DNA of 64,000 bases from Porticoccaceae bacterium LTM1 (GTDB lineage Bacteria > Pseudomonadota > Gammaproteobacteria > Pseudomonadales > Porticoccaceae): positions 942,501 through 1,006,500 of the forward strand of contig CP127080.1 of NCBI GenBank assembly GCA_030252795.1, in the 5' to 3' direction. The position numbers and the translations under genes were made by a program. The notes below the pieces were generated by a model. It was not told the origin of the DNA and made no database searches. It saw only the letters and a list, made by a program, of their open reading frames with translations. Position 1 is the stretch's first letter; every line of letters begins with the position of its first letter. Positions 4,303 to 44,022 of this stretch are shown here, piece after piece.

Positions 4303-4362
4303 TTTGTATTGGTAGTGAGTGTGTCGTGGTTTTGATTTTCGGAAAGTTTATTGCCTGAAATC

Positions 4363-4438
4363 GCCATCACCAGACCGGAACAGGCCGGCCCTCATAATAC
4401 CCGCAAATCGGGCTAACCTGTTCCGGTCTGGTAATGGC
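4363..4438. repeat. Long hairpin, conserved-loop family, copy A
   Basis: Two 22-base arms (4363-4384 and 4417-4438) pair with one mismatch around a 32-base loop containing cctcataatacccgcaaatc. The loop matches those of hairpins at 31894-31969 and 43498-43572, while the outer arm sequences differ. It lies in the 228-bp gap between the PepSY gene and argF, next to a REP-like unit. No gene was found in that gap. Confidence 0.85.
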
Positions 4439-4472
4439 TTGCGTTGGTGGTCTTATATGCCGAAAACTCGTT

Positions 4473-4497
4473 CGTCATCCCCGCGTAGGCGGGGATC
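4473..4497. repeat. REP-like unit
   Basis: Core cgtcatccccgcgtaggcgg followed by ggat, a short inverted repeat of the tcatccccgcg..gcgggga type. Related copies lie at 31266-31307 and 43929-44003. Confidence 0.7.
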
Positions 4498-4530
4498 TAT
4501 TGGCGTCGCGCTGCTCAGGATGGCACTGAA

Positions 4531-18697: not shown

Positions 18698-18735
18698 TGC
18701 ATTATCTCAGAAGGTAAGTCCTCTACTTGGTGTGG

Positions 18736-18845
18736 GACATGGGCGTGGTTTAGCTTGCTGTGACACGCCGTAGACCCATCCATGGGGGCTCGTGGCCAGC
18801 ATCCCTGCTGGCCACGGTCACATCAAGCTAAACCCCGTCCATGTC
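18736..18845. repeat. Composite long hairpin repeat
   Basis: Outer arms 18736-18757 and 18824-18845 (22 bp, two mismatches; outer part gacatgg). Inside are a tgtgac/gtcaca stem, a cccatccatggg palindrome and a perfect 11-bp hairpin cgtggccagca/tgctggccacg. It fills most of the gap between the convergent HIT and lipoprotein genes. Confidence 0.8.
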
Positions 18846-18871
18846 TTTCAAGTTTGTATGAATGGCGGCTT

Positions 18872-31815: not shown

Positions 31816-31840
31816 GTCATCCTGAGCGAAGCGAAGGGTC
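31816..31840. repeat. REP-like unit
   Basis: gtcatcctgagcgaagcgaa followed by gggtc; the same family as the palindrome at 37180-37208. It lies 53 bases before hairpin copy B. Confidence 0.65.
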
Positions 31841-31893
31841 CCGGGGTTGGTGTAGGTTTATTGGTCTTTATTGGGTTTGTCGCCAGCGGGTCC

Positions 31894-31969
31894 GCTCTTA
31901 CTGTAGCCTGACAGGCCACTCCTCATAATACCCACAAATCGTCGCGACCTGTCAGGCTACAGCAAGAGC
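31894..31969. repeat. Long hairpin, conserved-loop family, copy B
   Basis: 22-base arms (31894-31915 and 31948-31969) pair with one mismatch; the 32-base loop contains cctcataatacccacaaatc. Relative to copies A and C both arms lack the same short segment (ccgga on the left, its complement on the right), so pairing is kept. The rest of the 322-bp gap 31743-32064 is terminator and REP-like units; there is no gene. Confidence 0.85.
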
Positions 31970-32009
31970 TACTTTGAGGGCTTAAAAGTGTGCATCATGT
32001 ACAGCTCTG

Positions 32010-40630: not shown

Positions 40631-41726
40631 ATGGAAATTAATCCAATCAAACTTGCCCTCGACGATCTGCAAGCGCGCACTGACGTGCTTAGGGGGTATC
40701 TTTGACTATGATCACAAGAAAGAACGTCTCGCGGAAGTAGAACTGCTGTTGGCTGAACCGGGCGTTTGGAACGAGCCGGAGAAGGCCCAGGAACTGGGTC
40801 GCGAGCGCTCCACACTCGAAGCCGTAGTAAAAACCATTGATACTCTTACCTGCGGTGTCAGCGATACACGCGATCTGCTGGACTTTGCCGTGGAAGAGAA
40901 TGATGAAGCTGCTGTGGAAGATATTCGCGGCGAAATCGAATCGATGGAAGAGCAGCTCGCTGATCTGGAGTTCCGTCGTATGTTCTCTGGCGAAATGGAC
41001 CCCAACAACGCCTACCTCGATATTCAGGCTGGCTCCGGTGGCACCGAAGCCCAGGACTGGGCCGAAATGCTGCTGCGCATGTATCTGCGTTGGGCTGAAG
41101 CCAAGGGCTTTAAAGCCGAGATTGTTGAGGCATCCGCCGGTGAAGTGGCAGGACTGAAAAGTGCCACGGTTCATATTCAGGGTGAATACGCGTTTGGCTG
41201 GTTGCGCACCGAAACCGGTGTACACCGTCTGGTTCGTAAGTCGCCGTTTGATTCCGGTAACCGTCGTCACACCTCTTTTTCCGCCGTATTTGTGTCCCCG
41301 GAAATTGACGACAATATCGACATCGACATCAATCCGGCTGACCTGCGTATCGATACCTACCGCTCCTCTGGTGCCGGTGGTCAGCACGTTAACACCACCG
41401 ACTCCGCGGTGCGTATTACCCATGCCCCCAGCGGCATTGTGGTTCAGTGTCAGAACCAGCGCTCCCAGCACCAGAACAAAGACAAGGCGATGCAGATGCT
41501 GCGCGCCAAGTTGTATGAGATGGAGATGCTAAAACGCAGCGAGAGCGCCCAGGCGCTGGAAGATAGTAAATCCGACATCGGTTGGGGCAGTCAGATTCGC
41601 TCCTACGTGTTGGATGACTCCCGCATCAAGGATCTGCGTACCGGTGTTGAAACACGCAATACCGGCGCGGTACTGGATGGCGCGCTGGATAACTTTATTG
41701 AGGCCAGCCTGAAGGCTGGTTTATAA
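40631..41726 (+). CDS. prfB: Peptide chain release factor 2, with programmed +1 frameshift
   Basis: The start ATG is at 40631; after 24 codons an in-frame TGA lies at 40703-40705. The surrounding cttagggggtatctttgact contains the Shine-Dalgarno-like aggggg and the slippery cttt-ga, as in E. coli prfB. A +1 shift continues to 41726, giving 364 residues. The SPF tripeptide (RKSPFDSG) that reads UGA/UAA and the catalytic GGQ ([15 protein letters not shown]) are present. The frameshift autoregulates RF2: low RF2 lets the ribosome shift. lysS follows, as usual. Confidence 0.97.
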
Positions 41727-41730
41727 GGCC

Positions 41731-41808
41731 TGACGTCGGACGTTTGACGTCTGACGCCGGGAAGTACTAAATGAGATTGCGTCCGACGTCCGACGTCCGA
41801 CGTCCGAC
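41731..41808. repeat. Tandem 7-bp repeats with partial inverted copy
   Basis: Four copies of cgtccga lie at 41780-41808 and a degenerate opposite-sense array (gacgtcggacgtttgacgtc) at 41731-41756. The two halves can pair. They fill the prfB-lysS gap just before the lysS ribosome site. Confidence 0.8.
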
Positions 41809-41826
41809 CCGAGAAAGGTTGAAAAA

Positions 41827-43452: not shown

Positions 43453-43497
43453 AGGCTAGCTGCTCTCGTCAGTAAGTTAATTTTGTGCTCATAGTCC

Positions 43498-43572
43498 GCC
43501 CATGCCTGACCGGAACAGGCCTGCCCTCATATACCCACAAATCGGGCAAATCTGTTCCGGTCAGGCATGGGC
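43498..43572. repeat. Long hairpin, conserved-loop family, copy C
   Basis: Perfect 21-bp arms (43498-43518 and 43552-43572, with cctgaccggaacag on the left) around a loop with cctcatatacccacaaatcg, one base shorter in the tcat(a)atac part than copies A and B. It lies in the 723-bp repeat-rich gap between lysS and the SIMPL gene. Confidence 0.87.
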
Positions 43573-43630
43573 TCAGTCTGTGCGATGAGAACCTTCGCTA
43601 CGTCCAGGATGACAATGTGCTTTTTTACGC

Positions 43631-43803: not shown

Positions 43804-43928
43804 GTCGTTTCTCCAAAGTGGCTGTCGCCGTAACGTTGATGGGTGCCATTATGGGGACGGGCAATGTTAAGTAGGGTGGTGGATGCGTAAAGAAAGGTAA
43901 AAACTGCCGCAATTGCAAACTGCCCCTC

Positions 43929-44003
43929 GTCTTCCCCGCGAAAGCGGGGATCCATTGCGAATAGTGACCGACAAACCTGGATTCCCGCCTGCGCGGGAAT
44001 GAC
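43929..44003. repeat. Pair of opposed REP-like units
   Basis: Units cgtcttccccgcgaaagcgg (43929) and ggattcccgcctgcgcggga (43979) face each other across 26 bases, a BIME-like arrangement before the SIMPL operon terminator. Confidence 0.7.
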
Positions 44004-44022
44004 GGAGACGTTTTTTACACGC

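Follow-up and report, generated by a model that had tools for sequence, protein, structure and literature searches.

Hairpins in which a conserved loop stands on a covarying stem are usual in families of structured RNA, and dispersed hairpins with compensated stem changes are found as the double-hairpin elements of mitochondrial genomes. These belong to another compartment and have another sequence. The closest described bacterial systems are the REP, BIME and REPIN sequences, small extragenic palindromes that occur in many copies, form opposed pairs and tandem arrays that include flanking DNA, seldom lie between divergent genes and in many copies carry A-G or GTAG at the foot (PMC3733652; PMC3116915); the element described below shares these features, although GTAG itself is present at the foot of only a third of its copies. 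What group 3 TnpA-REP enzymes read is GTAG and bases of the loop; their stem must be well paired, but most of its sequence matters little to them. The transposases of IS608 and ISDra2 recognize bases in the loop and irregularities in the stem (PMC8266576). Hairpin ends of IS200/IS605 elements such as these resemble the present element, as it is interpreted below, in being structures recognized in this way and in their coupling to replication (PMC6006769), but such elements carry a transposase gene, whereas none accompanies the hairpins considered here.

Three such hairpins lie in the analysed stretch of 64,000 nucleotides from Porticoccaceae bacterium LTM1 (hereafter, the window). They were found where the initial annotation had placed them, each with 22-bp arms and, in the 22-bp register, a single mismatch. 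Copy 1 (4363-4438, minus strand, subfamily B) has arms at 4363-4384 and 4417-4438 within a covariance-model match at 4356-4444 (81.6 bits); its conserved loop at 4390-4409 reads CCTCATAATACCCGCAAATC on the plus strand, and its left foot (4356-4362) ends in ATC, where the family consensus has YCC before the stem. Copy 2 (31894-31969, minus strand, subfamily A; model match 31887-31975, 98.2 bits) has arms at 31894-31915 and 31948-31969, a conserved loop at 31921-31940 and the foot GTA-GC on the minus strand, a hyphen marking the junction of foot and stem; its right foot at 31970-31979, TACTTTGAGG, corresponds to the family consensus T(A/G)NTTTGGG, and the reverse complement carries ..AAAGTA-G. 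Copy 3 (43498-43572, minus strand, subfamily B; model match 43491-43578, 82.1 bits) has arms at 43498-43519 and 43551-43572, its mismatch being the innermost pair, G.T on the plus strand. The loop sequence common to the three is CCTCAT(A)ATACCCRCAAATC, with one base missing in copy 3, the conserved loop of which (43525-43543) is shorter by that base. By our own arithmetic, chance would produce about 2e-7 perfect 22-bp inverted repeats with a gap below 60 in 64 kb. Folded as single-stranded DNA, each of the three hairpins surpassed 200 of 200 shuffles on either strand, with z scores of -5.3 to -9.6.

REP-like units beside the hairpins, already remarked upon in the initial annotation, are of the CGTC-tagged GTCATCC... 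type and are clear at 4473-4499 (GTCATCCCCGCG..CGGGGATC, beside copy 1) and at 31817-31842 (GTCATCCTGAGCGAAGCGAAGGGTCC, beside copy 2), and degenerate near 43498; they form a separate family and lie outside the hairpin element. An inverted pair of CGTC-type REP units is also present at 43922-44005 in the window, with dozens of matches at about 80% identity in the congener G001, and an inverted repeat at 41720-41816 is formed by a GACGTCCGACGTC repeat tract.

The hairpins are dispersed widely in the host genome (a single contig of 3.13 Mb, in which the window spans 942501-1006500). Allowing up to 3 mismatches, the loop pattern matched there 34 times as opposed to 0 for a reversed control, a looser pattern gave 52 as opposed to 1, and a covariance model built from an alignment of 48 copies identified at least 73 distinct hairpins, a lower bound because only 75 candidates were scored in that search. 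The family is genuine and extends far beyond the three copies from which it was first recognized. Among 112 genomes of the same taxonomic family, only the host gave copies: none was found in two congeners, in 55 other relatives or, under strict filters, in the remaining genomes of these 112. Phage, plasmid and viral collections likewise gave none at the sensitivities used. Matches to the loop pattern in other genomic and viral contig collections had no paired arms and were attributed to chance. The two congeners are only 67-84% identical to the host in aligned segments, which is too diverged for clean empty sites. The family is best read as a species-specific dispersed repeat of about 90 bp.

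Alignment of the copies revealed a constant architecture, described here on the strand that reads CCTCAT (orientation F). About 30 T/G-rich bases and then ...YCC precede an outer stem of about 22 bp, which starts with GC in 51 of 60 copies. Below an inner stem of 3-5 bp lies a conserved mismatch consisting of one or two C.A oppositions, which on the other strand are U.G or T.G wobbles, and the inner stem is capped by a conserved loop of about 20 bases, CCTCAT(AATACCC, ATAACCC, ATAACTG, AATACTG, ATACCC)ACAAATC. On the 3' side the stem returns to GC and is followed by the foot T(A/G)NTTTGGG. Information content in the left foot is 1.38 and 1.25 bits at positions -1 and -2 (59 copies) and reaches background about 5 bp to the left and 10 bp to the right of the feet and stem. 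Stem length is constant: in 34 of 61 copies, 27 bases separate the outer end from the loop. Read on the minus strand, most copies have NNA-G at the junction, A closing the foot and G opening the stem, and 20 of 60 have GTA-G. Three subfamilies are distinguished by their arms: A (..CCTGACAGG), B (..ACCGGAACAGG) and C, in which the arms are individual.

These dimensions set the element apart from described REP types. GTAG REPs have a family-conserved stem sequence of 6-13 bp and a loop of usually 2-4 bases, in contrast to a variable stem of 22 bp and about 20 conserved loop bases here, where only a third of the copies have a GTAG foot. CGTC REPs have a CGTC/TGTC tag, a stem of 8-9 bp and a loop of 4-5 bases (PMC3733652), again in contrast to 22 bp and about 20 bases. 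Two other kinds of hairpin were rejected. An intrinsic terminator, in which a T-run follows a hairpin of short loop, does not fit a loop of about 20 bases with TNNTTTGGG after the stem on one strand and GG plus an A/C-rich stretch on the other, and inspection of the aligned copies revealed feet of CC-GC and GC-T, with no RYYYAAC...GTTRRRY boxes of an integron attC site.

Conservation of the loop together with arms that vary and yet stay paired, as the initial annotation had proposed from three copies, was borne out across the family. All 22 stem pairs vary in the alignment, each with changes on both sides, and several columns contain all four Watson-Crick pairs in quantity. Stem cells are paired in 92% of cases versus 60% in shuffles, and the covariation score is 0.783 versus 0.190 in shuffles and 0.06-0.20 for partners slid along the stem. 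Along nearest-neighbor edges, 67 base pairs were changed on both sides versus 78 uncompensated differences, while loop changes affected 26 of 655 positions; per base, change in the arms is about 2.5 times as fast as in the loop. An origin of the arms in target sites or genes was rejected. Identical or near-identical units occur at many loci with unrelated outer flanks, and in about 0.6 Mb of the genome the arm sequences matched nothing else but one copy of the hairpin whose loop is a variant; because the same arms recur beside unrelated flanks, they travel with the unit.

Of the 67 two-sided changes, 36 are transversion-type swaps, for which no G.U intermediate is possible, and two-sided changes are adjacent slightly more often than expected (12 versus 7.7). 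Both are in line with the proposal that template switching during replication, a described mechanism (PMC8794818; PMC7202029), keeps the arms of an inert palindromic repeat paired without any selection. Template switching may keep such stems perfect and contribute to the pattern (PMC8794818), but as the sole cause it is improbable, as it does not account for a stem of fixed length, for a loop and feet that do not vary, or for a one-sided excess among uncompensated stem mismatches. In F these are A.C rather than G.T in 27 versus 9 unique events (p 0.004), A.C in F being G.U or G.T on the other strand. This asymmetry favors pairing within one strand, whether as single-stranded DNA or as RNA.

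The same mismatch asymmetry, along with the conserved C.A oppositions below the inner stem that become wobbles on the non-CCTCAT strand, would be expected of a structured RNA present in many copies, in which the GATTTGTGGGTATTATGAGG strand is transcribed, the loop binds a protein or another RNA and the stem is generic support; the transcripts would come from the GATTTGTGGG strand. A precedent of the same design exists in the same genome. A minus-strand sequence at 18729-18852 in the window resembles TwoAYGGAY RNA (RF01731; 30.1 bits, with a gathering score of 43) and has a variable stem of about 29 bp; about 26 TwoAYGGAY loop matches were found in the host genome and 23 and 9 in the two congeners, and the host stems, of 23-29 bp, are as variable as those of the conserved-loop hairpins. 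Like the present family, TwoAYGGAY carries its conserved apical domain on a long and hypervariable stem that covaries, and dozens of copies of it occur in this genome. It differs in having two GGA hairpins at the apex instead of one open loop and in being present in both congeners, from which the conserved-loop hairpin is absent. The GGA motifs in these loops are of the CsrA-binding type. An RNA function, the chief rival reading, is nevertheless somewhat unlikely for the conserved-loop family, which is found in a single species, shows no orientation bias relative to neighboring genes and has flanks with no conserved promoter or terminator signal, as judged by information content and a scan of one site. 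Furthermore, more than half of its paired changes are the transversion swaps that lack a wobble intermediate, and the Rfam search of the window gave no match to the hairpins at gathering score, only weak matches to microRNA precursors of the kind that any long hairpin obtains. The initial annotation's statement that no described family has this pattern was too strong, because the stems of TwoAYGGAY in the same genome and those of REPINs (PMC3116915), in which compensatory changes are known, also vary with compensation. No repeat family joining a 22-bp unread stem to a conserved loop of such length turned up in the libraries and literature searched.

Based on simple ORF calling, nearly all copies of the hairpin lie between ORFs, and divergent gene pairs are avoided (5 of 61 contexts). 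About 10 pairs of neighbors in opposite orientation are spaced 6-90 bp apart, some of them within arrays, and tandem arrays have periods of 239-258 bp. At 115822-116866 of the genome, nine hairpins alternate in orientation with a 239-bp period between a cupin-like and a UbiD-like gene, and at 421746-422349 there is a tandem array of units of about 258 bp, each with a conserved-loop hairpin and a TwoAYGGAY-type hairpin. Templated block repair of the arms was considered for the latter array and rejected; by eye, its internal copies look instead like chimeras, formed when two hairpins were fused within the conserved loop during tandem duplication.

Orientation is biased with respect to replication. 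If the GC-skew switch near 1.55-1.7 Mb is taken as ter, the CCTCAT strand of subfamily A is in the leading-strand sense at 19 of 22 loci (p 0.0009), and the bias extends to all collapsed loci (38 of 56, p 0.01); group C, whose members occur in opposed pairs, has no such bias. Relative to tandem genes, the CCTCAT strand has the same direction in 21 cases and the opposite one in 18, so there is no bias with gene direction, and the replication-strand bias is not due to it. In subfamily A, the strand that bears the wobbles and the GTAG-like foot is the opposite of the lagging-strand template. This orientation is contrary to the prediction for IS608-type transposition and fits poorly with it.

A transposase or reverse transcriptase linked to the hairpins, which the initial annotation had suggested looking for, was not found, and no enzyme of any other kind was found linked to them. 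The genome gave no hit to the Y1 transposase and RAYT models (PF01797, none; REP_Tyr_transpos, NF047646, none even at E<=1), whereas 33 of the 58 genomes examined for it contain a Y1 domain. No such hairpin accompanies the Y1 loci of relatives, three of which lie in congener G001. The Y2 transposase model (PF04986) gave no match, but it matched nowhere in the control either, so this negative carries no weight. The only reverse transcriptase found in the genome belongs to a type III-A retron identified with PADLOC (2583443-2584075, with an adjacent phosphoribosyltransferase-like gene); being unlinked, with the closest copy known some 42 kb away, it was rejected as the mover. Nor was an autonomous element found between neighboring hairpins at three loci, which hold only ordinary genes, named by eye, e.g., those for a peptidyl-prolyl isomerase, an LpxH-like hydrolase, Ogt, UbiD and Rho. 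A match to a known REP/RAYT or terminator family, the outcome that would have counted against a separate family, was likewise not obtained, there being no RAYT and no Rfam match at the gathering threshold. Target-site duplications around the hairpins were not above chance. Their lack, usual as they are for MITEs, makes it highly improbable that the hairpins are remnants of a terminal-inverted-repeat transposon, of MITE or TIRYT type, whose full-length copy has been lost; the repeats are dispersed, non-coding, palindromic and known from one species, as such remnants would be, but their ends vary freely, whereas MITE ends are conserved. A GTAG REP would be expected to have a cognate RAYT flanked by the repeat, and none was found in the genome. 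Because the stem and transposase findings differ from those of REP/RAYT systems and neither a linked enzyme nor a target-site duplication was found, membership in these systems is not claimed. RAYT loss is known in REP-bearing genomes (PMC3733652), and the absence of a RAYT is therefore compatible with past mobilization.

On balance, the conserved-loop hairpin is probably a REP-like, dispersed, non-coding and non-autonomous repeat of about 90 bp that acts as a single-stranded DNA hairpin. This reading is preferred because enzymes that read loops would yield a fixed loop, stem irregularity, feet and length while leaving the stem sequence free. It is supported by the location outside genes, the opposed pairs, the tandem arrays, the GTAG foot of a third of the copies and the replication-strand bias of subfamily A. 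Recognition by the enzyme would depend on the unpaired feet, on the loop and on the wobble pairs beneath the inner stem, and the 22-bp stem, equivalent to two helical turns, would need only the right length and pairing. Acting in trans, the enzyme may have scattered copies at replication forks, its gene being now lost from the genome or no longer recognizable. The unread stem sequence would drift while selection for a working hairpin kept it paired, probably with help from template switching (quasipalindrome correction), by which one arm is restored from its partner. That the family represents a new class of replication-coupled mobile hairpin, whose enzyme reads only the loop and feet and leaves the stem free, is unlikely; the element looks like an undescribed REP-like dispersed element and not like a wholly new kind.

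If the stem is truly unread, the family would constitute a natural experiment, replicated more than 70 times in one genome, on the maintenance of pairing in long stems whose sequence turns over, and could separate selection from template-switch correction. An unread stem would also suggest that hairpin DNA has a mover besides the Y1 transposases already known.
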